A stretch of 64,000 nt of DNA from Halobellus limi (GTDB lineage: Archaea > Halobacteriota > Halobacteria > Halobacteriales > Haloferacaceae): NCBI RefSeq assembly GCF_004799685.1, contig NZ_CP031311.1, forward strand, positions 248,001 to 312,000, read 5' to 3'. Positions within the stretch are counted from its first letter, which is position 1; the number at the start of each line of letters is the position of its first letter. A program made the translations under genes and the position numbers. This document shows, piece after piece, positions 34,418 to 50,391 of the stretch. The notes under the pieces are model-generated. The model worked only from the letters and a program-made list of their open reading frames with translations. It made no database searches and had not been told where the DNA came from.

Positions 34418-35956
34418 ATGCATTCGACGCCCGTGCGGCGCGGCGCAGTGGGCGCCGCCGTCGGTACCGTGTGGCTCGCCGGACTGTACGTTGCCGCCCC
34501 GCTCGTCGGCGGGTTCGCTCCCGTCGCCCTCGCGGAGGCCATCATCGTCCGCTCGCCGGGGTGGCTGTCGACGCTGGCTGTCGGCCTCCTGGGGTTCTCC
34601 GCGAAGCCGGTGCTTCTGGGATCGGTGCTCGTCGGGATCGCCGCCCTCTCGGCGGTCGCGCGGATCGTCTGGCCGCGGGTCCGGCCGGAGACGCCGCTCC
34701 TGGCCGGCGTTCTGGGGGTGGGTGCGACTGCGGCCGTCTTCCTCGCCGCCGGAGCACCCCCCTCGCCCGGAGCGGTCCTCGGCGTCGCCGTCGCCGTCAC
34801 GCCGCCGTATCTCGCGGACCGACTGCTCTCGACGGCGAGGACCTCTTCCGAACCGGACCGCCGACGGTTCCTCCGACGGGTCGGCTCCGTCGCGCTCGTC
34901 GGCACAGGATCGCTCGTCGGTCTGCGCGCGGCCTTCGACCGATTCGCGGGTGGGAGCGGTCGCGGCGGGGCCGGGGGTGACGTCGCGGACGACGTCGAGA
35001 CGAACGACGGCGGTGCCGACGCCGGAGGAACGTCGCAGTCGACCGCCGGTCCCGGCGATCCCCGGTTCGACTTCGCGGGGATGCCGGCGGCGGTCACGCC
35101 CGCTGAAGACCACTACGTCGTCGACATCAACATCCGACCGCCGGACGTCGATTCCGACTCGTGGAGCCTCGACGTCGACGGCGCGGTCGAGAGCCCCTAC
35201 GGCCTGAGCTACGACGAGTTGCGCGCACACGACGCGAGCGTCGAGCAGATCATGACGATGGTCTGCGTCTCGAACACCGTCGGCGGCGACCTCGTCGGGA
35301 CGCCCCGCTGGACGGGCGTCCAACTGTCGGATCTGGTGGCCGACGCCGATCCCGTCGACGGGGCGGTCGACGTCGTCACCCACGCCGCCGACGGGTACAG
35401 CGAGGCGGTCCCGCTCGACATCGTCGAGCGCGAGGACATCCTGATCGCCTACGAGATGGGATCGGGGCCGCTCCCGACCGAACACGGTTTTCCCGCCAGG
35501 TTGCTCGTCCCCGGGCGGTACGGGATGAAGATGACCAAGTGGATCACGAGAATCGAGGTCTCGACCGCGGACCACGAGGCCTACTGGGAGTCCCGCGGGT
35601 GGGACGAGGAGGCGGTCGTCAACACGATGTCGTACGTCCGCGGCGCCGAACGCGACGGCGATCGGGTCACCGTCGGGGGCGTCGCCTTCGGCGGCCTGGA
35701 GACCGGCGTCGAGGAGATCGCCGCCGTGGAGGTCAGCGTCGACGGCGGCGACTCCTGGCGCGAGGCCGAGTTGGAGGCGCCGATCGCGCCCCACGCGTGG
35801 CGGCGGTGGCGGCACGCCTTCGACGCGCCCGACCGCTCGGAGTTCGAGGTCGTCGTCCGCGCGATCACTCGGGAGGGCGAAGTACAGACCGAAGAACGGA
35901 GTTCGCCCCGTCCGAGCGGGGCGACGGGGTGGCACCGTCGGTCTATTCGCGTCTGA
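34418..35956 (+). CDS. membrane-anchored sulfite-oxidase-like molybdopterin oxidoreductase
   Basis: A 512-residue protein: about four membrane helices (residues 8-140), a linker with RRRFLRRVGSVALVG, then the oxidoreductase molybdopterin-binding fold (about 205-400). The molybdenum cysteine is at about residue 283 (MVCVSNTVGG), and the Mo-co dimerisation domain (VEVSVDGGDSWREAEL) lies at the C-terminus. This is the layout of YedY/SUOX-like enzymes; substrates may be sulfite, sulfoxides or protein methionine sulfoxide. It lies 5 kb upstream of the TsdA-like cytochrome on the same strand, so a combined sulfur-oxyanion role is possible. That link is inference. Confidence 0.85.
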   Translation: MHSTPVRRGAVGAAVGTVWLAGLYVAAPLVGGFAPVALAEAIIVRSPGWLSTLAVGLLGFSAKPVLLGSVLVGIAALSAVARIVWPRVRPETPLLAGVLGVGATAAVFLAAGAPPSPGAVLGVAVAVTPPYLADRLLSTARTSSEPDRRRFLRRVGSVALVGTGSLVGLRAAFDRFAGGSGRGGAGGDVADDVETNDGGADAGGTSQSTAGPGDPRFDFAGMPAAVTPAEDHYVVDINIRPPDVDSDSWSLDVDGAVESPYGLSYDELRAHDASVEQIMTMVCVSNTVGGDLVGTPRWTGVQLSDLVADADPVDGAVDVVTHAADGYSEAVPLDIVEREDILIAYEMGSGPLPTEHGFPARLLVPGRYGMKMTKWITRIEVSTADHEAYWESRGWDEEAVVNTMSYVRGAERDGDRVTVGGVAFGGLETGVEEIAAVEVSVDGGDSWREAELEAPIAPHAWRRWRHAFDAPDRSEFEVVVRAITREGEVQTEERSSPRPSGATGWHRRSIRV

Positions 35957-36794: not shown

Positions 36795-38012
36795 TCACTC
36801 CGGGCGCGTCGCTCGGTACGCCCCGAGGCCGACGGCGACCGCACCGAAGACCCCCGCGAGGATCGGGGCGCCGGGGAACGACGGGATCGACCCGCTCTCT
36901 GAGGACGACGGTTCGACCGCGTTCGCCGTCGAGTCGCTTCCGGCGGTCGATCCGGTGGCGTTCGTCCGCGCCCCGGCGACGTCGACGCTGATCGTCGTCC
37001 CCGTCGCCAGCGACTCGTTCGTCGTGAGAAGCGGGATCGGTGCTGACCCGGTCCGGAGGTTCGACGAGTGACGCACCCGCGAGGGGTCGTAGCCCTGGAG
37101 AACCACCGCGAGCGACGTCGTGTTCCGCCGGACCTCCTTCTCGAACCGCGTCCCGGTCAGGTCGTAGGCCGCGCCGACCTGGGTGCTCCCGTTCGCCGGC
37201 ACGCTGACGTTCAGCTCGACGCCCGCGTCCGTCCGCCGATACTCCGCCCCTGAGCCGTCGACCATCGCGGCGTACGCCGACGCGTCGGCGGGCAGTCCGA
37301 CCGTCACAGTCCCGAGGAACGGCCGGTCGCTCGGGTTCTCGAAGGCGATCGTCTCGACGACGCTCGGCGCCTCCGAGTCGTTCGCCGGCGGCACGATCTG
37401 CACGACGTGACCCGTCGGCGTCCGATTCGCGACGCCGAGCACGGACGTGTCGTTCGTCGGCGGCAGCGCGGTGACCGTCACGTTCCCATCCGCCGACGGA
37501 TCGACGGTCCGCCGGTACGCCGCGTTCCCGACGGTGGTGCGGAGCTCGTAGGTCTCGTCGGGTTCGAGCGGACCGAACGCGAACGCGCCCGTCTCGTTCG
37601 TCCGTTTCGTATCGACGACGAACTCGTTCTCGTCGATCAGTTCGACGACCGCGCCGGACTGTGCAGTCCCGTCGGCATCGACGACCCGTCCGGAGAGCTG
37701 CTGGGACAGTTCCACCTCGACCCGCGTACGGTTCTGTAGCACCTCGTAGTGCGTCGCGCCCTCGTGTTCGATCCGGACGGCGTACGCCGGCGCGTCCGGC
37801 GCCTCGACCGAGAAGGACGTTCCCTCGACCGTCGTCGTCACCGCGTCGTCCGTCCGCTGCTGCTGCTCCGTGAGCGGGACGACCTCGACGCGGGCGCCGT
37901 CCGCGCTCCCGCCGTCGACCGTGACCGTCCCGCCCACCGTCGTCGTCGCGCTGGCGACGGGGACGAACGCGAGCGCGCTGAGAACCACGATGAGCGCGAG
38001 CAGCCGTCTCAT
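36795..38012 (-). CDS. secreted protein with carboxypeptidase-regulatory-like domains, Ccm-linked
   Basis: A 405-residue exported protein: a signal peptide (LLALIVVLSALAFVPVASA), two carboxypeptidase-regulatory-like Ig repeats (about 27-100; 105-165 with SGRVVDADGTAQSGAVVEL and ETGAFAFGPLEPDETYEL), a beta-rich domain, a Ser/Thr-rich stalk and a C-terminal membrane helix. Its ATG overlaps the ccmF stop (ATGA), so it is translated with CcmF. No CxxC or heme motif is present. Its place in the operon is where CcmH or CcmI might stand, so a structural role in the maturation complex is an inference. Confidence 0.8.
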   Translation of the reverse strand: MRRLLALIVVLSALAFVPVASATTTVGGTVTVDGGSADGARVEVVPLTEQQQRTDDAVTTTVEGTSFSVEAPDAPAYAVRIEHEGATHYEVLQNRTRVEVELSQQLSGRVVDADGTAQSGAVVELIDENEFVVDTKRTNETGAFAFGPLEPDETYELRTTVGNAAYRRTVDPSADGNVTVTALPPTNDTSVLGVANRTPTGHVVQIVPPANDSEAPSVVETIAFENPSDRPFLGTVTVGLPADASAYAAMVDGSGAEYRRTDAGVELNVSVPANGSTQVGAAYDLTGTRFEKEVRRNTTSLAVVLQGYDPSRVRHSSNLRTGSAPIPLLTTNESLATGTTISVDVAGARTNATGSTAGSDSTANAVEPSSSESGSIPSFPGAPILAGVFGAVAVGLGAYRATRPE

Positions 38013-40459
38013 CGGTCCGACACCTCCGTGACGCCCTCCGGTCGATCGCGGGCCGTCCCGGCGCTCGGTTCGCCGGAGCCGACGACCGAACTCGTTCGCA
38101 CGCCGTGTTTCGGATCGAAGACAAACACGAGCAGCATCCCGAGGAGGAGCGACAGGATGCTCAGGCGCATCAGCGTCACGAAGGGGATCCGCTTGACCGA
38201 CATCGACGCGGTCCCGTCGCTGACGCCGGCGATGACGTACGTGTCGACGAGCGCCCCGCGATCGATCAGCACGTCTCTGACTTGGAGGCCGCCCTGTTCG
38301 GGGTACTCCCGCTGTCCGGCGACGCCGGAGACGACGAGACCGCTGTCGTCGTACACCCCGACGGACACGCCGGTGGCGATCACCCGGGTCGGAACGGCCG
38401 CATCCGGCGGATCGCCGGCGGGACCGACGGTCTCGGGGCCGGCGAGGACGATCACGTCGGCCGTCGGGACGAACTCCCACATCACCTGCCCGCGGGCGAC
38501 GACCTCCTGACCGGTTTCGACGCCCACCGTCCCGTTCCCGGCGACGCCGATCCACACCTGGGAGTCGTCGAGTTGCACCACCGTCGCCTGCGGCCCCTCG
38601 CGTATCGCCGTCACCGTCCCGTGGACGGTCTGCACCGACGTGTTCAGCGACTGTCCGCGCGTGAGGACCTGCGACGAGGAGAGCGCGTACGTCCCCGGTT
38701 CGGGGTCCGTCGGGAACTCGGTCCGCTCGTAGCCGAGCACCCGGACGTCGTAGTCGGACGCGCCGACGTCGCGCTGGGAGGTATCGACCGCGCCGGCCGC
38801 GACGCCGGTCGCCATCACCGACGCCTGTCCGGCGAAGAGATACATAAACGGCAGCGACAGAACGAGCAGCGCCGCGCCGACGTGGATCAGCGTGATTCCG
38901 GTCTCCTTCAGTTTCGCGTCTCGACTCTCCGTGGCGACGATCCGCCCCCACGTCCGCTTGACCGTCCCGAGAATCGCGTACGCCACCGGCGGCAGCACCG
39001 AGAGCGCGCTCGCGCCCCCGATCACCTGATAGACGAGCGCGTCGCCCGGCCGAACGGACGCCAGTCGCCATGTCTCCGACGGCGCGACGGCGGCGCCGAC
39101 GAGCGTCGCGAGGCCGAACACCGCCAGTCCGACGAGGCTCCGGCGGAGGCCCTCCCGGTCGTAGTCCATGTAGAACCCGAGGAGGAGCAGGGCCGCGAGC
39201 ACGAGCGGGTAACTCCACAGGTTGTAGTAGCGCGATTCGACGGACACCTCGAGGCCGGTCATCGCGCTCCGGAGCACCGGGAACGAGAGGCCCCAGAGGG
39301 ACACGAAGGTGAGAAGCCCGAAGAGGAGGACGGCGAGGTGTAGCAGGTTCGAGCGGGTGATCCACCGGGCGAGACGGCTCTCCTCGGTCGGCTCGGAAGC
39401 GGATGCGTCGGCGTCGCTCTCCTCGGTCAGCATCCAGTAGGCGAGCGGGAGCACGACGCCGAGGAGGGTCGTCACCCCCATCAGCACGAGGAACGACGCC
39501 CCGATCCCGCCGTCGGCGAACGAGTGGATGCTCCGGAAGACGCCGCTTCTGACCACCGACGTCGTGTACACCGCGAGCGCGAACACGCTGGCGGTCATCG
39601 CGGGTGCGAGGACCCGATACCGGCCGCCGGGCCGGTAGTTGGTGACCGCGTGCAACGTCGCGGTCAGGAACAGCCACGGGATCAGGATGGCCGTCTCGAC
39701 GGGGTCCCACGCCCAGATCCCGCCCCAGCCGAGCACCGTGTACGACCAGAGGCCGCCGAGCGCGACGGCGGCGGTGAGAAACAGCCACCCGAGTCGGAGC
39801 CAGCGGGTCACGCTGCCGATCCACGCCGAGAAGAGGCCGTCGTCGCCGCGGAACAGCGCGATGAAGTGTGCGGCTCCGATCGCGAACGGCATCGTCAGCA
39901 GCGCGTAGGAGACGAACATCACTGGGGGGTGGATCGCCATGTACGGATCGACGAGGAGGGGGTTCAGCCCCTGTCCGCTCGTCGGCGTGAACCCCGGCGG
40001 CGCGTTGGGGAACGCCGTCCGAACCGACGCGAACGGGCTCTGCAGCAACAGCATCGCCGCGAAGTACGTCACGACGCCGACGGTGAGCGCGTGAACGAGC
40101 TTCCCGCGCCGCGTCGGGTATCCTCGGGTCACGCCGGCGATCAGCGCGACGACGGCGACGATCGAGGCCCACAGGAGCACCGATCCCTCGTTGGCCGCGT
40201 ACACGCCGGTCACGCGGTAGAGCACCGAGAGGTACGCGGCGGTGTTCTCCCACACGTAGGCGTTCGAGTAGTCGAGGCTCACGAACTGGTAGGTGAGATG
40301 CGAGAGGGCACCGACCAGGAGCACCGCCGTCGCCGCGGTCAGCTTCGGAACCCACGGGAGGTACCGGTCGTCGTCGAGGAGATACGCTCGCGCGAGGAGG
40401 GACGTACTCGTCAGTCCGGCGAGGAACGCGAGCGCCAGCAGGACCGTTCCGGGGTTCAC
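38009..40459 (-). CDS. ccmF: cytochrome c heme lyase CcmF
   Basis: An 816-residue multi-pass membrane protein of the CcmF/CycK family, which joins heme from holo-CcmE to apocytochrome c outside the membrane. The WWD heme-handling motif is present (WGGIWAWDPVETAILIPW), preceded by the HPPVMF segment and followed by a long helix array. It is about 150 residues longer than usual: residues ~560-760 form an extracytoplasmic beta-rich region containing an OB-fold-like stretch near 600-665 (VHGTVTAI, GQEVVARGQV). GTG start overlapping the thioredoxin stop (GTGA). Confidence 0.92.
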   Translation of the reverse strand: MNPGTVLLALAFLAGLTSTSLLARAYLLDDDRYLPWVPKLTAATAVLLVGALSHLTYQFVSLDYSNAYVWENTAAYLSVLYRVTGVYAANEGSVLLWASIVAVVALIAGVTRGYPTRRGKLVHALTVGVVTYFAAMLLLQSPFASVRTAFPNAPPGFTPTSGQGLNPLLVDPYMAIHPPVMFVSYALLTMPFAIGAAHFIALFRGDDGLFSAWIGSVTRWLRLGWLFLTAAVALGGLWSYTVLGWGGIWAWDPVETAILIPWLFLTATLHAVTNYRPGGRYRVLAPAMTASVFALAVYTTSVVRSGVFRSIHSFADGGIGASFLVLMGVTTLLGVVLPLAYWMLTEESDADASASEPTEESRLARWITRSNLLHLAVLLFGLLTFVSLWGLSFPVLRSAMTGLEVSVESRYYNLWSYPLVLAALLLLGFYMDYDREGLRRSLVGLAVFGLATLVGAAVAPSETWRLASVRPGDALVYQVIGGASALSVLPPVAYAILGTVKRTWGRIVATESRDAKLKETGITLIHVGAALLVLSLPFMYLFAGQASVMATGVAAGAVDTSQRDVGASDYDVRVLGYERTEFPTDPEPGTYALSSSQVLTRGQSLNTSVQTVHGTVTAIREGPQATVVQLDDSQVWIGVAGNGTVGVETGQEVVARGQVMWEFVPTADVIVLAGPETVGPAGDPPDAAVPTRVIATGVSVGVYDDSGLVVSGVAGQREYPEQGGLQVRDVLIDRGALVDTYVIAGVSDGTASMSVKRIPFVTLMRLSILSLLLGMLLVFVFDPKHGVRTSSVVGSGEPSAGTARDRPEGVTEVSDR

Positions 40460-41022
40460 TGTGCGGCCTCCGTCGTCATCGCCGAGGCCGCTCTGGGGGT
40501 CGACGTCGGTCCGGTAGCGGCTGTCGTAACCGATCCGTTATCGGCCGTCTCGCCGTCCTGGTAGCGCTCTCTGGCCGTCTCCAGGTACGCGAGGAAATCC
40601 TCGGGCGGGGCGTAGCCGGGGATCCGCGTGAGCACGTCGCCCTCGGGCGTCACGACGACGTGCTGCGGCGGGTAGTTGACGTTGTACCGCTGCTGTAGCC
40701 GCGCGTCGGCCTCGGCGTCGCTGTCTAAGTTCACCGCTACCTTCGTGAACTCGTCGAGCTCCGATCGCACCGCCGGATCGCTGTAGTGGTTCTGGTTGTA
40801 GTCCTCACAGTAGGTACACCAGGTCGTCCAGAAGTAGATCACGACCGGTTCGTCCTCCGCGGCGGCGGTCTCGACGGCGTCGGCGTAATCGGTCTGCCAT
40901 CGCGTCTCTCCGTGGTAGGAGTACCCCTCCCCGGAGAGCACGGGCGCCGCGTTCATCGACACGTACCCGATTCCGAGCAGTGCGGCGAAGAAGGCGATCG
41001 TCATCGCCTTTCGTGGATTCAT
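40456..41022 (-). CDS. membrane-anchored thioredoxin (CcmG/DsbE-like role)
   Basis: A 188-residue protein with a single N-terminal membrane helix (AMTIAFFAALLGIGYVSMNA) and a thioredoxin fold outside the membrane. The redox pair is C69-x-x-C72 in FWTTWCTYCEDYNQNHY, and cis-Pro lies in NYPPQHVVV. The sequence is nearer to DsbD-gamma/SoxW-like thioredoxins than to classical CcmG. Being first in the ccmF operon, it is the likely reductant of apocytochrome c cysteines, fed by CcdA encoded across the divergent region. The C-terminal Ala/Thr tail is disordered. Confidence 0.9.
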   Translation of the reverse strand: MNPRKAMTIAFFAALLGIGYVSMNAAPVLSGEGYSYHGETRWQTDYADAVETAAAEDEPVVIYFWTTWCTYCEDYNQNHYSDPAVRSELDEFTKVAVNLDSDAEADARLQQRYNVNYPPQHVVVTPEGDVLTRIPGYAPPEDFLAYLETARERYQDGETADNGSVTTAATGPTSTPRAASAMTTEAAQ

Positions 41023-41261: not shown

Positions 41262-42614
41262 ATGAGCCAGGGCGACTCGACGCTCCTGCTCAAACCCGTC
41301 CTCCTCGTCTTCGGGACGGTGTTCGCGGCGATCGTCGTCGTGTTCGCCATCAACGGTGCCGTCGCGTTCCTCGGCGGCCCGGCGGACGCGCCGGCCGCCA
41401 GCGCCGGCGGCGGCGAGGCCCGCGACCTCCCCGGCACGTGGAACGGCAGCAAGTGGTACAGCGAAGACCTGCGCGAGCAGGGGTTCGAGTACAAGAACGC
41501 GACCGCGGGCGAGGAGGTCAACTTCGTCCCCAAGGAGATGAACGACTCGACGCTCCCGGAGAACGAGAACCGCCGGGAACTCATCCGTGAGGGGCGTTCG
41601 CTCTTCGCGAACACGTCCAACGAGATGCCCGAACACGTCGGGAACGACCTCTCGTGTGCGAACTGCCACGGCGGGGGCGACCTCCCCACGACGACCGGAA
41701 TGGTCGGGCAGGACATCGACATGATCCCGCTCGTCGGGACCGCGGCCGGCTACCCCGAGTGGACCGGTCGCACCCAGCGGATGCGGGACATGCGCCAGCG
41801 GATCATGGGGTGCTTCCTCCGGAGTATGAACGCGCCGGGCTCCGAGGAGGGCGTCCCCGCGTACGACAGCCGCGAGATCCAGGCGATGGAGTCGTACATG
41901 GTCTGGTTGAACAAGGGAACCCCGAGCGAGACCGTCCCCTACTGGCGACACATCGAGAAGCCGGAGGGCGACGAGAAGGTCCCGGTCTCGGAGATCAACC
42001 CGGTCCGCGGGGCCGAGCTGTACCTCGAGAACTGCGCCTCCTGTCACGGTGCAGACGGCCAGGGGACCGAGGGGCAGTACCCGCCGCTTTGGGGCGCGGA
42101 CTCGTTCAACGACGGGGCCGGAATGGGCCGCGTCTACACGTCCGCCGGCTTCACCCGCGAGGCGATGCCGTACGGCGCGGCGCACACGTTCTCCGACTGG
42201 GAGGACGTCCAGGACGTCGCCGGGTTCATGAACGCCCACAAGCGGCCGCACCTCCCGCGACAGCCCAAGGACTGGGCCGCCGCCGGTGCGCCCGATGAGG
42301 CGGTCTACTACAACCGCACGCAGCAGCGTCTCGGGTACGATATGAACCCGATGACGAAGAAGCTCATGCTCGCGGACATCCCGATCGACGACTCGGAGAT
42401 CAACGAGAGCGTGATCCCCGACGACGTCGAGCGGTACGACCAGCCGCTTCGGAACGAGTCCGTCGACGGCTCCTGGCAGACGACGTGGATCCGGACCTAC
42501 GAGGACGTGAACAACTCGACGAGCGACGACGCCGCGAACCGGTCGTCGGTGACCGCCCAGGACGCGGTCACGACCGCCCTGGCGGCAGAGCAGTCCGGCC
42601 GGACGGCGAGCTAA
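41262..42614 (+). CDS. tsdA: diheme cytochrome c, thiosulfate dehydrogenase/tetrathionate reductase (TsdA-like)
   Basis: A 450-residue protein with one N-terminal membrane anchor (8-37) and an outer-facing domain with two heme sites: C132-A-N-C135-H136 and C258-A-S-C261-H262. C184 (RIMGCFLRSMN) sits where TsdA has its heme-1 cysteine ligand. GQYPPLWGADSFNDGAGMGR and M302 (REAMPYG) match the TsdA heme-2 region. TsdA couples two thiosulfates to tetrathionate, or the reverse, one electron at a time. The anchor is unlike soluble bacterial TsdA. The downstream halocyanin is the likely electron partner. Confidence 0.85.
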   Translation: MSQGDSTLLLKPVLLVFGTVFAAIVVVFAINGAVAFLGGPADAPAASAGGGEARDLPGTWNGSKWYSEDLREQGFEYKNATAGEEVNFVPKEMNDSTLPENENRRELIREGRSLFANTSNEMPEHVGNDLSCANCHGGGDLPTTTGMVGQDIDMIPLVGTAAGYPEWTGRTQRMRDMRQRIMGCFLRSMNAPGSEEGVPAYDSREIQAMESYMVWLNKGTPSETVPYWRHIEKPEGDEKVPVSEINPVRGAELYLENCASCHGADGQGTEGQYPPLWGADSFNDGAGMGRVYTSAGFTREAMPYGAAHTFSDWEDVQDVAGFMNAHKRPHLPRQPKDWAAAGAPDEAVYYNRTQQRLGYDMNPMTKKLMLADIPIDDSEINESVIPDDVERYDQPLRNESVDGSWQTTWIRTYEDVNNSTSDDAANRSSVTAQDAVTTALAAEQSGRTAS

Positions 42615-42639: not shown

Positions 42640-43332
42640 ATGATAACCGACCCGACCACCGTCACCGTGTTTCTCGCGGGCGTTTTGACGATCCTGACCC
42701 CGTGCTGTCTCCCGATGATCCCCGTCCTCGTCGTCGGGGCGAACGGGCACCGGCTTCGGCCGGTCGCGATCGTCGTCGGGAGCACGGTGACGTTCACGGC
42801 TCTCGGGATCTTGACCGGGATGGTCGGCTCCGTGACGCCGGATTCCGTCCGCGCGCCGTTCGCCATCCTGATGCTGGCGTTCGGGGCCGTGATGGCCGAC
42901 GACGACCTCAACGAACTCTACTCGCGGTACGCGTCCCGTCTCGCCGGACGGGCCTCGCGGCTCACCGGCCGCATCGACGAGGACGCCCATCCCCTGGGCA
43001 ACGCGCTCGCGGTGGGGCTGCTCCTGGGCGTCATCTGGCTCCCCTGCGTCGGTCCCGTCCTCGGGGGCGTCTTGGCCTACGTCGGGACGACGTCGGACGT
43101 CGTCGGCAGCGCTCGGCTGTTGGCGACGTACGGGGCGGGCTTCTCAGTCCCGCTCCTCGGCGTCGCGTACCTCGGCCAGGCCGGCAGCAGTCGGCTGCTC
43201 GACTCGGCCACGAGCGGGGGGTCGCCCGAACTGTTCCGGACGGCGACCGGCTACGCGCTCGTCGCGCTCGGGATCGCCGTCCTCTTCGGTCTCGACAAAC
43301 TCGCGCTCGCATCGGTAACGACGTGGACGTAA
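42640..43332 (+). CDS. ccdA: CcdA-type thiol-disulfide membrane transporter
   Basis: A 230-residue six-helix membrane protein. The two conserved cysteines are in LTPCCLPMIP (helix 1) and LPCVGPVLGG (helix 4), the CcdA/DsbD-beta pattern. It carries reducing power from cytoplasmic thioredoxin to the outside, where it would reduce the thioredoxin at 40456-41022 and keep apocytochrome cysteines free for heme. It starts 25 nt after the cytochrome gene in the same operon. Confidence 0.92.
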   Translation: MITDPTTVTVFLAGVLTILTPCCLPMIPVLVVGANGHRLRPVAIVVGSTVTFTALGILTGMVGSVTPDSVRAPFAILMLAFGAVMADDDLNELYSRYASRLAGRASRLTGRIDEDAHPLGNALAVGLLLGVIWLPCVGPVLGGVLAYVGTTSDVVGSARLLATYGAGFSVPLLGVAYLGQAGSSRLLDSATSGGSPELFRTATGYALVALGIAVLFGLDKLALASVTTWT

Positions 43333-43336
43333 CAGC

Positions 43337-44122
43337 ATGAACGGTAGCTCATCGACACAGGACGACGACGCGCACGATCGCACGAGCAGAGACCGCAGCG
43401 TTCGCTTCGCCCGGTTCCTCGGGACGGTCACGGGCGTTCTCCACCGCGTGACGGGCAGTCGGTTCGTCGCGTGGGGCGCGTTCGGCTTCGGACTGCTCTC
43501 GATGGTGTTGGTCTTCGGGTTCGCGTCCGACACGATGTACGGGATCGAACACGGCGCGAACCTCCTCGCGTACTGGCACATCTCGCTCGCGTGGGTCGCC
43601 GCCGCGGCACTCGGATCGACGTTCGTCGGCAGCGCGCTGTATCTTCGCTACCGGGGGCCGTTCTGGAGCCGGCTGGCCCACAGCTCCGGCGAACTGGGGT
43701 TCCTCTTCGCGACGCTGACGCTGCTTCTGGGCAGCGCGTGGGGGCGCGTCATCTGGAACTCCTGGTGGGAGTGGACCGACGTCAGGCTGGTGACGTTTCT
43801 GATCGTCTGGTTCATCTACGCGGGCTACCTCGTCGTTCACTCCGCGACCGACGCTCAGTCGGGCGACCGGTACGCGGCGGTCTACGGCGTCGTCGGATTC
43901 GTCACCGTCCCGCTGTCGTACGCGTCCACGCGGCTCTGGACGCCGACGTTTCACGAGACCACGATCGGGAACAGCGGCGTCAGTGCGAACATCGACCCGC
44001 TGACGCTCGTCGTGACGCTCGTCGCGGCGACGTTCCTCTATCTGTACCTCGTCGGTATCCGGATCCGCATCCACGAACTCGAACAGGACGTCCGCAGAGC
44101 ACGGCTCTCACGGAGGCGATAA
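43337..44122 (+). CDS. ccmC: heme exporter permease CcmC
   Basis: A 261-residue six-helix protein. The tryptophan-rich heme-handling loop SAWGRVIWNSWWEWTDVRL at about 133-151 is the WWD motif of CcmC, and His residues flank it (H81, H115). With CcmA/CcmB it forms the ABC-type complex that loads heme onto CcmE. It starts 4 nt after ccdA and is followed by ccmD. A polar charged head (DDDAHDRTSRDR) precedes the first helix. Confidence 0.92.
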   Translation: MNGSSSTQDDDAHDRTSRDRSVRFARFLGTVTGVLHRVTGSRFVAWGAFGFGLLSMVLVFGFASDTMYGIEHGANLLAYWHISLAWVAAAALGSTFVGSALYLRYRGPFWSRLAHSSGELGFLFATLTLLLGSAWGRVIWNSWWEWTDVRLVTFLIVWFIYAGYLVVHSATDAQSGDRYAAVYGVVGFVTVPLSYASTRLWTPTFHETTIGNSGVSANIDPLTLVVTLVAATFLYLYLVGIRIRIHELEQDVRRARLSRRR

Positions 44123-45052: not shown

Positions 45053-45120
45053 CGGGCGTCGCCTCCGACCTCACTCGGGCGTCGCCTCCGACCTCACTCG
45101 GGCGTCGCCTCCGACCTCAC
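45053..45120 (+). repeat. three-copy 23-bp tandem repeat
   Basis: Units at 45053-45075, 45076-45098 and 45099-45120 (the last one base short) share CGGGCGTCGCCTCCGACCTC. They sit between the convergent halocyanin and ccmB genes, and the last unit runs into the ccmB stop. They may be slippage products or part of a shared termination region. Confidence 0.92.
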
Positions 45121-45791
45121 GTCTCGACGACGTACTCGAAGGTCGCGACGCCGGCGAGCAGTACGATCCCGGTGTACAGTCCGAGGAGTCGGAGCCAGCC
45201 GCCGAGCGGCGCGCCGCTTTCGAGCGCCGCAGTGAGTTCGACCCCGGCCAGCAGCAGCGGAACGACGAGCGGAACGAGGAGGACCGGCAGCGCCAGTTCG
45301 TCGAGGCCCGAGCGAAACGTCAGAATCGAGACGACGACGCCGATGGCGGAAAATCCGAGCGCGGCGACGGAGAGCACCGCCACGACCGAGACCGCCGTGG
45401 AGACCGACGGAGCGTACCCGAGAAAGACCGTGGTCGCACCCAGCGTCACGACGCTCACCGCGAAGACGAACACCGCCGCGCTGAGCACTTTTCCCAGATA
45501 GATCGCCGACCGATCGACTGGGGCGACCAGCATCCCGTCGAGCGCCCCGTTCCGGTCTTCGAGTTCGACCGTCTTGGTGACGCCGAACGTCCCGGCGAAC
45601 ACGAAGGCGACCCACAGCGCACCGCGGCCGAGCAACGCCGAGCGCTGGAGCGTCTGGACGAAACTGAACGCGAACACGAGCACGACGAGCAGCGCGAAGA
45701 CGGCGACGGTGGTCGTCACCTGCTTCGTCCGCCGTTCGATCCGGAGGTCCTTTCTGAACACCCGGTAGACCGCCCGGAGAAACGCGCTCAT
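45117..45791 (-). CDS. ccmB: heme exporter permease CcmB
   Basis: A 224-residue protein with six membrane helices, beginning VYRVFRKDLRIERRTKQ and with FGVTKTVELEDRNGALDGMLVAP after helix 2, which is the CcmB loop. It forms the permease of the ABC complex with CcmA and CcmC. The gene is the last of the ccmE-ccmA-ccmB operon on the minus strand, 19 nt after ccmA. Length matches the family. Confidence 0.9.
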   Translation of the reverse strand: MSAFLRAVYRVFRKDLRIERRTKQVTTTVAVFALLVVLVFAFSFVQTLQRSALLGRGALWVAFVFAGTFGVTKTVELEDRNGALDGMLVAPVDRSAIYLGKVLSAAVFVFAVSVVTLGATTVFLGYAPSVSTAVSVVAVLSVAALGFSAIGVVVSILTFRSGLDELALPVLLVPLVVPLLLAGVELTAALESGAPLGGWLRLLGLYTGIVLLAGVATFEYVVET

Positions 45792-45810: not shown

Positions 45811-46578
45811 TCATCGCGCCGGGTCCCCCCTCGGTTCCCGCTCGGAGTCGACGCCGATCGTCCGGCGATACGCCTCGGCGAACGACGCCGCGTCCCCGAG
45901 CGCGAGGTCCGCCTCGAGGCGACCGCGATCGACGACGAGCCCCCGGTCGCAGCGGGCGACACCGCGTTCGAGGTCGTGCGTCGTCAGAACGACGGTCCGG
46001 TCGTCGAACCCGTCGAGGACGGCTTCGAGGTCGGCGGCTGAGTGCTGGTCGAGTCCGGTGTACGGCTCGTCGAGCAACAGCACCTCGGGATCGTGGAGCA
46101 GCGCGCGGGCGAGCGACAGCCGCTTCCGAAGCCCGTGTGAGAACGCCGCCGGTCGGTCGCTCCCGCGGCGGGACAGCCCGACGGTATCGAGTACCGACGC
46201 ACACCGGTCCGCGGGGTCGTCGACGCCGTGAAGGTCCGCGTGGAACCGGAGGTTCTCCCGGGCGGTGAGGTCGTCGTACAGCATCGTCTCGTGAGTGACG
46301 ACGCCGATCGTTCGGTAGGTGGCGTAGTCGTCCGGGGCCAGTTCCACGCCGTCGACCGTGATCGTCCCGCGGGTCGGTCGCGCGAGCCCCGCCATCATCC
46401 GAAGCAACGTCGTTTTGCCCGCGCCGTTCGGGCCGAACAGCCCGACCGTCGAGCCGCGTTCGACGGCGAACGACAGGCCGTCGACGGCGGTGAAGTGCCC
46501 GTACGATTTCGTCACGTCTTCGACGGCGATCGCCGGGGGGTTCGAGGCCGTCTCCGCGCGCTCGCCCACCGCCGTCAT
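45811..46578 (-). CDS. ccmA: heme exporter ATPase CcmA
   Basis: A 255-residue ABC ATPase. Walker A GPNGAGKTT and Walker B LLLDEPYTGLD are normal, while the signature is FSHGLRKRLSLARALL, a variant lacking the canonical LSGGQ. CcmA powers release of holo-CcmE from CcmCD. The ATG overlaps the ccmE stop (ATGA). An extended in-frame N-terminal sequence upstream is Arg-rich and overlaps ccmE, so it is not used. Confidence 0.9.
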   Translation of the reverse strand: MTAVGERAETASNPPAIAVEDVTKSYGHFTAVDGLSFAVERGSTVGLFGPNGAGKTTLLRMMAGLARPTRGTITVDGVELAPDDYATYRTIGVVTHETMLYDDLTARENLRFHADLHGVDDPADRCASVLDTVGLSRRGSDRPAAFSHGLRKRLSLARALLHDPEVLLLDEPYTGLDQHSAADLEAVLDGFDDRTVVLTTHDLERGVARCDRGLVVDRGRLEADLALGDAASFAEAYRRTIGVDSEREPRGDPAR

Positions 46579-46985
46579 CGAGTGCTCTCGGGCCGCTCCT
46601 CGCCTTCGTGTGCACGGACGGAGAGTTTGTTCGCGACCAGTCGGTCCCCCTCGAACTGTCCCTTGGCGACGACGACGCGGCCGTCTTGGAGCGTATCGGG
46701 GACCGTCCCCTCGTAGACCACCGGGACGGTGTGGTTCCCGTCGGTCACCGCGAAGGTGATCGTCTCTCCGTCGACGTCGAGGTCGGTGACGACGCCCTCG
46801 AGGTTGACCCACTCTTCTTGGTACGTCCCGTCCGATTCCGAGAGTTGCGTCGGCGACACGAACGCGGCCGAGGCGTTCATACTCGTCACGCCGAGGGTGG
46901 CCAAGAGGACGAGTACCCCGACGGTCGTGACGAGCAGTTTGTTCTTCCGGCGCACGTGTGCGGTTCGTACGCGGCTACCCTTCAT
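46575..46985 (-). CDS. ccmE: heme chaperone CcmE (variant)
   Basis: A 136-residue protein with one N-terminal membrane helix (LLVTTVGVLVLLATLGVTSM) and an OB-fold outside the membrane (LEGVVTDLDVDG, VVVAKGQFEGDRLVANKL). CcmE binds heme covalently through a His or Cys in an H/C-xxx-Y motif before handing it to CcmF. Here the region reads VRAHEGEERPES: a His (H126) is present but the Tyr position holds Glu, and there is no Cys. It is the first gene of the ccmEAB operon. Confidence 0.88.
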   Translation of the reverse strand: MKGSRVRTAHVRRKNKLLVTTVGVLVLLATLGVTSMNASAAFVSPTQLSESDGTYQEEWVNLEGVVTDLDVDGETITFAVTDGNHTVPVVYEGTVPDTLQDGRVVVAKGQFEGDRLVANKLSVRAHEGEERPESTR

Positions 46986-47163: not shown

Positions 47164-47928
47164 ATGCGCGAACTCGTCTTCGCCCTCGAGTACGAACCCG
47201 GGTGCAACCGGGTGGCCGACGCCCTCGCCGACCACCCCGACGCCCGGGTCCGGTCGCTCTCGCTGCACGTCACCGCCGACCACCTCTGGCGGGTCGATCA
47301 CGCGACCGGCACGCCGGCGGCGCTGGACGACATCGAGGCCGCGTTCGTCGACAGCGACTACTACGCGGACTGCTTGGCCGCCGAGCACTGCGGCGCCACG
47401 CAGACGACGGAGGTGCTGGATCACACCGACGACACGCTCGTCCTCTACTCCCACTGGGAGCGGACCCCCGCCTGCGACTCGGTCCCCCACATCGCCCGCG
47501 ACCACTTCGGCGACGGCGTCCTGTTCGAGACCCGCCACGAGGGCCGCCACTACACGTGGCGGCTGATCCACTCCGGCGACGGCGACGCCGCGGCGTTCTT
47601 CGACGACCTCGCGGCGGCGGTGGGCGACTGCGCCCAGACGGAACTCCTCCGGTCGACGGAGACGGCCGCGCCCGCGGGTCGCGTCTCTGAGACCTCCGAC
47701 GGACTGCCCCCCGAACAGGAGGCCGCGCTCCGGGCCGCGGTCGAACACGGCTACTACGAGTCGCCTCGCGAGGTCGACGTCGGCGAGCTCGCGGCGCACC
47801 TCGACGTACCGCGATCGACGCTCACCTACCGGCTCCGACGGGCCGAAGAGCGGCTGGCGAAGCGACACGTGGCGAGAGAACACGTCGCCGACGGGCGGGT
47901 TTCGACGGGATCGTCGACGTCACTCTGA
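47164..47928 (+). CDS. Cys/His-rich HTH_10 (bacterioopsin-activator-like) regulator
   Basis: The 254-residue protein has an N-terminal sensor domain (about 1-165) rich in Cys and His (C14, C70, C76, C104, C156 and many His). A C-terminal HTH_10 domain at about 184-235 has the usual LPPEQEAALRAAVEHGYYESPREV and the recognition helix RSTLTYRLRRAEERL. Bat-type HTH_10 proteins regulate single operons in haloarchaea. Lying directly upstream of the metal ATPase on the same strand, it probably senses Zn/Cd/Pb and controls that gene. Confidence 0.85.
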   Translation: MRELVFALEYEPGCNRVADALADHPDARVRSLSLHVTADHLWRVDHATGTPAALDDIEAAFVDSDYYADCLAAEHCGATQTTEVLDHTDDTLVLYSHWERTPACDSVPHIARDHFGDGVLFETRHEGRHYTWRLIHSGDGDAAAFFDDLAAAVGDCAQTELLRSTETAAPAGRVSETSDGLPPEQEAALRAAVEHGYYESPREVDVGELAAHLDVPRSTLTYRLRRAEERLAKRHVAREHVADGRVSTGSSTSL

Positions 47929-47946
47929 CGGACGGAGCGGCCTGTT

Positions 47947-47960
47947 TTGGAATATTCCAA
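47947..47960 (+). promoter_or_regulatory. perfect palindromic operator before the metal ATPase
   Basis: TTGGAATATTCCAA is a perfect 14-bp palindrome. A TATA-like GCTTATCG follows at about 47966-47973, and the ATG is at 47998. Position just upstream of the core promoter suits an activator site; the adjacent HTH_10 protein is the obvious candidate. Confidence 0.7.
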
Positions 47961-47997
47961 CGAAGGCTTATCGAACTGAGGGGCTTACCCCGACACG

Positions 47998-50391
47998 ATG
48001 ACAGACGACAGGGATCCGGTAGGACAGCCGACGGGCGAAGGGAGACGGGAGGTGACGGTCCGGCTTGTCGTCCCCGAGATGGACTGCCCGTCGTGTGCGG
48101 GCAAGGTCGACAAGAGCCTCGACCGCGTCGAGGGCATCGTCGACACGACGCTGCAACCGACGACGGGCACCGCCTCCGTCACGTACGATCCCGATCGGGT
48201 CAGTGAGGCGGACCTGATCGACGCGATCGAGGGCGCGGGCTACGAGGTCGTCGCGGGCGGCGGTTCCGAGGACGGGACCGCCGCCGGATCGGGGCCGGAA
48301 GCGTCGGCCGGCGGCGTCGACGTCGCCCCGCCCGCGGAGGTGTGGACGAGTCCGCGGGCGATCAAGACGTGGATCGGCGCGGTCTTCGTCACCCTCGGCC
48401 TCCTCTTCGAGTTCGTACTCGCGGGGCAGAACCCCGCGGTGGCGAGCGTGCTCGCGTACCCCCTCCACCTCGCGGACGTGCTCTTCCTCGTGGCGATCGC
48501 CGTCAGCGGCTACCCGGTCGTCCGCGGCGGCTACTACTCCGCGCGGAACCGGAGCCTCGACATCGACCTGCTCATGGGGACGGCGATCATCGCGGCGACC
48601 GGCATCGGCTACTTCGTGGAGGCCGCGACGCTCGCGGTGCTCTTCAGCGTCGCCGAACTGCTGGAGGACTACTCGATGGACAGGGCCCGGGACTCCCTGC
48701 GGGAACTGATGGAACTGTCGCCCGACGAGGCGACCGTCCGCCGCGACTCGGACGCGGCGGGAGACAGCGGTGAAACGGCCGAAGAGGTGACCGTCCCGGC
48801 CGAGGAGGTCGCCGTCGGCGAGACGGTGATCGTCCGCCCGGGCGAGAAGATTCCCCTCGACGGGGTCGTCCGGGAGGGCGAGAGCGCGGTCGACGAGTCG
48901 CCCATCACCGGCGAGAGCGTCCCGGTCGACAAGACCGAGGGCGCGGCGGTCTACGCAGGCAGCATCAACACCGAGGGGTACCTCGAAGTCGAAGTCACCT
49001 CCACCGCCGGCGACTCGACGCTCTCGCGGATCATCGAGATGGTGCAGGGAGCCCAGGAGAAACAGACCGACAAAGAGCAGTTTGTCGACCGCTTCGCGGG
49101 CTACTACACGCCCGCCGTCGTCGTGCTCGCGATCCTGACGGCCGCGGTTCCGCCGCTCCTGATCGCCGATCCCGTCTCGGTGGGGGCGGCCGGCTACGCG
49201 ATCACGTTCGTCGGCGACTGGGGGACGTGGTTCGTCCGCGGGCTCACCCTGCTCGTGATCGCCTGTCCCTGCGCGTTCGTCATCTCGACGCCCGTCTCCG
49301 TCGTCTCCGGTATCACCAGCGCCGCGAAGAACGGCGTCCTGATCAAGGGCGGCAACCACCTCGAAGCGATGGGCGAGGTCGACGCGGTGGCGTTCGACAA
49401 GACCGGGACGCTCACGCGGGGCGAACTGGCCGTGACCGACGTCGTCGCCTTCGGCGACCGCGACGAGGACGACGTCCTCCGGTACGCCGCCGGCCTCGAA
49501 CGGCGGAGCGAACACCCGATCGCGTCGGCGATCCTGGCCCGCAGCGAGGAGGCGGGCATCGAGAACCCGCCGAGCGCCTCGGATTTCGAGAGCTTCACCG
49601 GCAAGGGCGTCCGGGCCGACGTCGACGGCGAGACGTTCTATGCGGGCAACCCCGCGCTGTTCGAGGAGCTCGGCTTCGATCTCACGGCCTCCCAACACCG
49701 CACCGACGGCGGCGCGCTGACCGGTCGGTCCGCGGGCGAGGACGTCGGCGACGTCCTCGCCGACCTGGAGCACGAGGGCAAGACGGTCGTCCTCGTCGGT
49801 ACCGAGACGGAACTGCTCGGAACGGTCGCCATCGCCGACGAGGTGCGGCCGGGCGCCCGGCGGACCGTCGAGCGGCTCCACGAACTCGGCGTCGAACACG
49901 TGGTGATGCTGACCGGCGACAACGAGGGCACCGCCCGCGCCATCGCCGAGGACGTCGGCGTCGACGAGTACCGCGCGGAACTGCTGCCCGAGGAGAAGGT
50001 CGAAGCGATCGAAGAGATCCGCGACGCTCACGGCGACGTCGCGATGGTCGGCGACGGCGTCAACGACGCGCCCGCGCTGGCCACCGCGGACGTCGGCGTC
50101 GCGATGGGCGCGGCGGGGACCGACACCGCCTTAGAGACCGCCGACATCGCGCTGATGGGCGACGACATCGGCAAACTCCCGTACCTCTACGCGCTGTCGC
50201 ACACGGCCAACGGCGTGATCCGGCAGAACATCTGGGCCAGCCTCGCCGTGAAGGCGCTGCTCGCGCTCGGGGTCCCCCTGGGCTTCGTCAGCGTCGCCGT
50301 CGCGGTCGTCGTCGGCGATATGGGGATGAGCCTCGGCGTGACCGGCAACGCGATGCGGCTGGCTGGGATCGACCCCGAGCGGTTCGCGTAA
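47998..50391 (+). CDS. zntA: P1B-type Zn/Cd/Pb-exporting ATPase
   Basis: A 797-residue heavy-metal pump. An N-terminal HMA domain holds MDCPSC (C30, C33). The membrane part has the CPC motif at residues 423-425, phosphorylation Asp467 in DKTGTLT, the phosphatase TGES and a late GDGVNDAPAL. The last membrane segment carries DMG (a D-x-G), the mark of the P1B-2 group that exports Zn, Cd or Pb rather than Cu. It is probably driven by the upstream regulator and palindrome. One acidic linker (residues ~82-108) follows the HMA domain. Confidence 0.93.
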   Translation: MTDDRDPVGQPTGEGRREVTVRLVVPEMDCPSCAGKVDKSLDRVEGIVDTTLQPTTGTASVTYDPDRVSEADLIDAIEGAGYEVVAGGGSEDGTAAGSGPEASAGGVDVAPPAEVWTSPRAIKTWIGAVFVTLGLLFEFVLAGQNPAVASVLAYPLHLADVLFLVAIAVSGYPVVRGGYYSARNRSLDIDLLMGTAIIAATGIGYFVEAATLAVLFSVAELLEDYSMDRARDSLRELMELSPDEATVRRDSDAAGDSGETAEEVTVPAEEVAVGETVIVRPGEKIPLDGVVREGESAVDESPITGESVPVDKTEGAAVYAGSINTEGYLEVEVTSTAGDSTLSRIIEMVQGAQEKQTDKEQFVDRFAGYYTPAVVVLAILTAAVPPLLIADPVSVGAAGYAITFVGDWGTWFVRGLTLLVIACPCAFVISTPVSVVSGITSAAKNGVLIKGGNHLEAMGEVDAVAFDKTGTLTRGELAVTDVVAFGDRDEDDVLRYAAGLERRSEHPIASAILARSEEAGIENPPSASDFESFTGKGVRADVDGETFYAGNPALFEELGFDLTASQHRTDGGALTGRSAGEDVGDVLADLEHEGKTVVLVGTETELLGTVAIADEVRPGARRTVERLHELGVEHVVMLTGDNEGTARAIAEDVGVDEYRAELLPEEKVEAIEEIRDAHGDVAMVGDGVNDAPALATADVGVAMGAAGTDTALETADIALMGDDIGKLPYLYALSHTANGVIRQNIWASLAVKALLALGVPLGFVSVAVAVVVGDMGMSLGVTGNAMRLAGIDPERFA

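Follow-up and report, generated by a model that had tools for sequence, protein, structure and literature searches.

A TsdA relative with a predicted membrane anchor, encoded within a cytochrome c maturation cluster of the haloarchaeon Halobellus limi

Introduction

Haloarchaea are usually regarded as organotrophs in which c-type cytochromes are all but absent. The enzyme of the thiosulfate/tetrathionate step has, to our knowledge, been studied in bacteria only, and a literature search found no experimental papers on a haloarchaeal TsdA. Three bacterial proteins are among the closest described systems, one of which, TsdBA of Marichromatium purpuratum, is TsdA fused to its electron acceptor TsdB. 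In Allochromatium vinosum TsdA, Cys123 is a ligand of the catalytic heme and Arg109, Arg119, Ser127 and Arg224 lie at the active site (PMC4423706), while heme 2 is ligated by Lys208 when oxidised and by Met209 when reduced (PMC5146829). In the Campylobacter jejuni enzyme Cys138 and Met255 are the corresponding ligands, and Asn254 takes the place of the lysine; replacement of this asparagine by glycine lowers thiosulfate oxidation but does not lower tetrathionate reduction (PMC5146829).

Haloarchaeal homologs of thiosulfate dehydrogenase were grouped by Kletzin et al. in 2015 as cluster 28 (368–485 aa; PMC4429474). In the part of that account drawn on here, their modelled structure is SoxA-like, they are arranged in an operon-like fashion with ccm genes in five species, some haloarchaea have cytochromes of cluster 28 and cluster 29 (MauG) only, and an origin by acquisition from bacteria is suggested. 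The gene described below is thus not the first TsdA homolog reported beside ccm genes in haloarchaea. It shares with cluster 28 the host group, the TsdA/SoxA likeness and the ccm linkage, but the same part of the account gives no residue-level assignment of the heme ligands. What is new here is that assignment, together with an R-E-[A/S]-M motif at heme 2, two types of membrane anchor, a C-terminal extension, a halocyanin neighbour and a larger count of genomes.

Organization of the tsdA locus

The DNA analysed (the window) is a stretch of 64,000 nucleotides of the Halobellus limi genome (contig NZ_CP031311.1, positions 248,001 to 312,000). Its tsdA homolog lies within a complete ccm cluster (Table 1), with divergent genes for a thioredoxin-like protein, CcmF and a CarboxypepD_reg protein on one side, and co-directional genes for CcdA, CcmC, CcmD and halocyanin on the other, followed by CcmB, CcmA and CcmE. 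The base composition of the open reading frame (68% GC, 94% at third codon positions) is similar to that of its surroundings, and close homologs in related Halobellus genomes are full-length open frames with 84–96% identity.

Table 1. Features of the tsdA locus in the H. limi window.
Feature	Coordinates	Strand	Basis or remark
tsdA homolog	41262..42614	+	ATG start, 450 codons
Heme-1 attachment motif CANCH (residues 132–136)	41655..41669	+	Read directly from sequence
Codon for Cys184, predicted to be the distal ligand of catalytic heme 1	41811..41813	+	Alignment
Heme-2 attachment motif CASCH (residues 258–262)	42033..42047	+	Read directly from sequence
Codon for Met302, predicted to be the distal ligand of heme 2	42165..42167	+	Alignment; preceded by Ala301
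CcdA/DsbD-type transmembrane thiol-disulfide protein	42640..43332	+	Pfam DsbD_TM; syntenic
CcmC-like heme handling protein	43337..44122	+	Pfam Cytochrom_C_asm; TIGR01191 below cut-off
CcmD-like small membrane protein, 39 aa	44125..44244	+	Conserved in 28 loci; no Pfam match of its own
Halocyanin (blue copper), Tat-type signal, C-terminal transmembrane segment	44322..45035	+	Pfam Copper-bind
CcmB	45117..45791	-	Pfam CcmB
CcmA	45811..46578	-	Pfam ABC_tran; adjoins CcmB; homolog annotated CcmA in Halorussus halophilus
CcmE heme chaperone	46575..46985	-	Pfam CcmE 1e-15; His kept, HxxxY tyrosine absent
HVO_2928-type HTH_10 regulator and heavy-metal P-type ATPase	47179..50391	+	Adjoin ccmE
Thioredoxin-like protein (WCTYC), divergent from tsdA	40456..41022	-	Pfam Thioredoxin_2
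CcmF/NrfE-type heme lyase	38009..40459	-	Pfam Cytochrom_C_asm and CcmF_C above cut-off
Carboxypeptidase-regulatory-like protein, secreted, membrane-anchored	36795..38012	-	Pfam CarboxypepD_reg
Membrane-anchored molybdopterin oxidoreductase, sulfite-oxidase fold	34418..35956	+	Oxidored_molyb and Mo-co_dimer

The thioredoxin-like protein is likely a CcmG-type reductant, and the heme lyase scores 171 bits against TIGR00353, below the cut-off of 569. A homolog of the CcmD-like protein is annotated as a CcmD family protein in Halobacterium noricense. The gene set recurs in the 31 loci examined, with CcmB/A/E placed either before or after the remainder, and CcmA, CcmB, CcmE and CcmF adjoin tsdA in 29 of them. 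Exceptions arise because a contig ends (L074, L077) or because the ccm cluster lies elsewhere (L068, genome G193); in G193, some 6 kb separates CcmE from a MauG gene.

We note three further features of these neighbourhoods. First, the CarboxypepD_reg protein is free of cysteines and adjoins ccmF in all tsdA loci examined, the shortest contig included; we know of no role for it in cytochrome c maturation. Second, the haloarchaeal CcmE proteins (that of the window and those of loci L017–L078 and L081–L094) keep the heme-binding histidine (RAH[END]) and have no tyrosine at +4. They fit neither the bacterial HxxxY motif nor CxxxY, which is the CcmE motif of other archaea, and in MauG-type genomes the sequence is mostly RAHEGEH, with long tails rich in histidine and tyrosine. 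Third, the regulator and P-type ATPase genes beside ccmE are conserved in Halobellus rarus.

Relationship to TsdA and SoxA

The first-pass annotation had proposed that the gene encodes an archaeal TsdA, and the comparisons bear this out: that the product is a genuine haloarchaeal relative of TsdA is confirmed at the level of sequence. A phmmer search of the PDB gives A. vinosum TsdA as the best match (E 2.5e-39), followed by the TsdBA fusion of Marichromatium (E 1.5e-37), both over residues of about 96–335. The next matches, to cytochromes of the bc1 complex, have E-values more than 30 orders of magnitude higher, and SoxA appears at E 0.09. The ranking is unchanged, with TsdA at the top, when a profile built from nine sequences is used. 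The Pfam domains SoxA-TsdA_cyt-c (PF21342) and Cytochrom_C (PF00034) follow one another in a single chain, both above their cut-offs.

Best matches to another diheme family, such as SoxAX or cytochrome c peroxidase, had been named in advance as an outcome that would speak against TsdA. A SoxA-type enzyme, loading thiosulfate onto a SoxYZ-like carrier, would draw on the facts that PF21342 spans both families, that their heme-1 domain with its cysteine ligand is common to both, that the NCBIfam SoxA model (TIGR04484) gives 41 bits, and that the haloarchaeal proteins are described as structurally similar to SoxA in the part of Kletzin et al. used here (PMC4429474). However, the 41 bits are far under the cut-off of 110, the PDB match to SoxA is weak beside that to TsdA, and the second heme domain shares the chain as it does in TsdA. 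The genes examined around tsdA (ccm, thioredoxin, halocyanin, PCNA and transport ATPase genes) include none recognised as soxX, soxY or soxZ. We therefore consider this reading very improbable. CCP_MauG (PF03150) has no match in the protein or elsewhere in the genome, and the SoxA and MauG identities were both dropped.

Heme ligands and active site

The open reading frame holds every residue that had been singled out as a heme ligand signature, i.e. both CxxCH sites, C184 and M302. The protein has exactly five cysteines, two in CANCH, two in CASCH, and C184; residues 271–290 read GQYPPLWGADSFNDGAGMGR. We aligned 47 sequences, comprising 34 from haloarchaeal genes, 11 from bacterial plasmid-borne relatives and two from the PDB. 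Both CxxCH motifs, R180, C184, S188 and M302 are invariant in all 47; every haloarchaeal sequence also has R170 and R290. C184 aligns without ambiguity with A. vinosum Cys123 (precursor numbering; Cys96 in the mature protein) and M302 with A. vinosum Met209, the counterpart of C. jejuni Met255, so that the predicted places of these two residues, at heme 1 and heme 2 respectively, correspond to established ligands. By the same alignment R170, R180, S188 and R290 are the counterparts of Arg109, Arg119, Ser127 and Arg224.

The protein thus resembles A. vinosum TsdA (PDB 4V2K and 4WQ7 series) in having two heme c domains per chain, a cysteine as heme-1 ligand, a methionine as heme-2 ligand and all four active-site residues. 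It departs from it in having alanine rather than lysine before the heme-2 methionine, an N-terminal transmembrane anchor, a C-terminal extension and five additional residues between H136 and C184. The haloarchaeal heme-2 signature is R-E-[A/S]-M-P-Y, whereas that of the bacteria is mostly K-x-[N/K]-M-P. With A301 in place of lysine, the published switch between Lys and Met ligands would not be expected. Heme-2 ligation by His/Met in the absence of lysine is closer to C. jejuni TsdA, compared by the published roles of its residues, but asparagine precedes the methionine there and alanine or serine in haloarchaea. In M. purpuratum TsdBA (PDB 5LO9), the TsdA half of which is the part matched, heme 2 has Asn-Met; the haloarchaeal protein differs from it in having no TsdB domain, and there is a halocyanin gene nearby instead.

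The distance from H136 to C184 is indeed 48 residues, as first noted, but it is not particularly near the family value, since counts on the sequences of the solved structures give 43 (A. vinosum TsdA) and 39 (TsdBA fusion); the greater spacing results from an insertion after the first CxxCH. AlphaFold2 models of the full protein (from an alignment with nine haloarchaeal sequences) and of the core (residues 96–342) alike have a mean pLDDT of 31.2, most likely because the alignment consists only of nine closely related sequences. The ligand positions given above accordingly come from alignment to residues that were assigned by crystallography.

The conserved active site also bears on whether the protein is an enzyme at all. 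A diheme electron-transfer cytochrome with a TsdA fold, in which thiosulfate chemistry was lost or never present, would be compatible with the isolation of the haloarchaeal sequences, which form a group of their own at the end of a long branch and carry a C-terminal extension. However, the catalytic cysteine, both active-site arginines, Ser188 and R290 are kept across 34 haloarchaeal genes of about 60–98% identity, and a simple carrier would offer little reason for selection on a free-standing catalytic cysteine, so we regard this as unlikely.

Membrane anchor and C-terminal extension

The protein is made up of an N-terminal transmembrane anchor, the heme-1 and heme-2 domains, and a haloarchaeal C-terminal extension (approximately residues 336–450). 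The anchor is a hydrophobic segment at about residues 8–38 with a Kyte-Doolittle mean of up to 2.8, and in this protein and its near relatives it looks like an uncleaved helix. Cleavage by signal peptidase after APAASA was considered and rejected, as the motif is not kept in distant relatives (e.g. L021 and L057), and an uncleaved anchor is preferred for that reason. In almost half of the haloarchaeal relatives, belonging to other families than the near relatives of the window protein, the signal ends in a lipobox (LAGC; e.g. L064, L069, L071 and L077). Hydrophobic N-terminal segments are also present in bacterial relatives (L047, L049, L052, L053, L054 and L055). The first-pass annotation was therefore correct that an anchor is present, but not in treating it as distinctive within the TsdA family; tethering to the membrane is a common theme, with two haloarchaeal solutions, and does not single this gene out.

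All haloarchaeal members have a C-terminal extension of ~65–150 residues, the core of which contains invariant Y349-Y350-x-R352-x-Q354 and N362-P363-M364 segments that bacterial members lack or keep in part.

Proposed function and electron partner

We propose that the product is very probably a diheme cytochrome c of the TsdA family, extracellular but tethered to the membrane and matured by Ccm, that interconverts thiosulfate and tetrathionate and hands electrons to an acceptor at the membrane's outer face. The homology, the conservation of ligands and active site, the hydrophobic N-terminal segment and the ccm linkage form the basis of this proposal, from which we infer the activity, the halocyanin partner and the direction. 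The protein would be exported unfolded, its N-terminal helix remaining uncleaved, and its hemes would be attached outside the cell by the Ccm system encoded around tsdA. Interconversion would take place at the His/Cys-ligated heme (H136/C184), with two thiosulfates joined through a Cys184 S-thiosulfonate intermediate. Electrons would then pass from heme 1 to the His/Met-ligated heme 2 (H262/M302), on to the acceptor at the outer membrane face and into the respiratory chain.

In species that have it, a halocyanin whose gene lies a short way downstream of tsdA is the probable acceptor. That gene directly follows ccmD in 11 of the 31 loci, lies elsewhere in one, and is missing from the surroundings of tsdA in 19; halocyanin may therefore not be the general partner, and it was rejected as a universal one.

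The genera concerned are aerobic heterotrophs, which favours thiosulfate oxidation as a supplement, and we lean towards this over tetrathionate reduction as the physiological direction. An appreciable, if less favoured, possibility is that the same enzyme is mainly a tetrathionate reductase, using tetrathionate as an acceptor at low oxygen as in C. jejuni; this differs from our proposal in direction only, and the confidence we place in the two overlaps. The His/Met ligation of heme 2 without lysine agrees better with C. jejuni TsdA than with that of A. vinosum, and by analogy with N254G, a small residue before the methionine that favoured reduction in the C. jejuni enzyme (PMC5146829), Ala or Ser before Met302 could point the same way. 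However, the evidence on N254G comes from a single bacterial enzyme, and the sulfur-reducing haloarchaea tested, which may or may not have TsdA, did not grow on tetrathionate (PMC5437934).

The molybdopterin oxidoreductase of Table 1, encoded some 5 kb away from tsdA on the far side of PCNA, might be a sulfite dehydrogenase. In Halorussus halophilus (L058, 15173–17368) genes for DsrE, TusA and rhodanese/MBL-fold proteins follow the tsdA cassette at a distance of a few kb; they are found in none of the other loci and were set aside as functional evidence.

Distribution and origin

TsdA is present in 26 of 391 haloarchaeal genomes (about 7%), CcmE in 40, and a CCP_MauG protein above cut-off in 14. 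All 26 TsdA genomes and all 14 MauG genomes have CcmE (Fisher p 9e-31 for TsdA with CcmE, uncorrected for kinship among the genomes). Conversely, TsdA or MauG is found in 39 of the 40 CcmE genomes, one of which has both (kinship again uncorrected); in the fortieth, G393, CcmE is weak and divergent. This near-perfect rule offers a simple two-client system in which archaeal cytochrome c maturation could be studied. In H. limi, TsdA is the only protein found in the genome with a PF00034 cytochrome c domain and is plausibly a dedicated client of the Ccm system; judged from the genome sequence, it appears to be the main or only client of the genes that surround it. That these genomes pair a complete, catalytically conserved TsdA with cytochrome c assembly genes of its own suggests that some haloarchaea oxidise thiosulfate for additional energy or respire tetrathionate in brines; if true, this would bring archaea into that step of the sulfur cycle.

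Among 393 genomes sampled from the phylum, TsdA matches are confined to the order, and no more relatives turned up in two scans of viral contigs. In a tree with 13 bacterial sequences the haloarchaeal ones are split off by a fully supported branch (100/99). The bacterial sample is small and the connecting branch long, so that the split is no more than compatible with a single transfer of tsdA from a bacterial donor. A more far-reaching reading, which we hold with somewhat less than even confidence, is that haloarchaea lacking other c-type cytochromes acquired TsdA and its own Ccm system as one transferable cassette, that TsdA was rewired so that a membrane halocyanin stands in for TsdB or cytochrome c, and that this constitutes an unrecognised branch of thiosulfate/tetrathionate respiration in several families. 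Copies of tsdA-ccm are plasmid-borne in Halobacterium noricense and Halorussus halophilus. Two cassettes, each complete, are present in each of two genomes, G375 (H. noricense plasmid; L057 and L078) and G380 (L066 and L067). On the A. vinosum plasmid pALVIN01 (L050, 3001–3638) a tsdA-like copy matches as two pieces under two annotated genes, and is apparently a broken gene.
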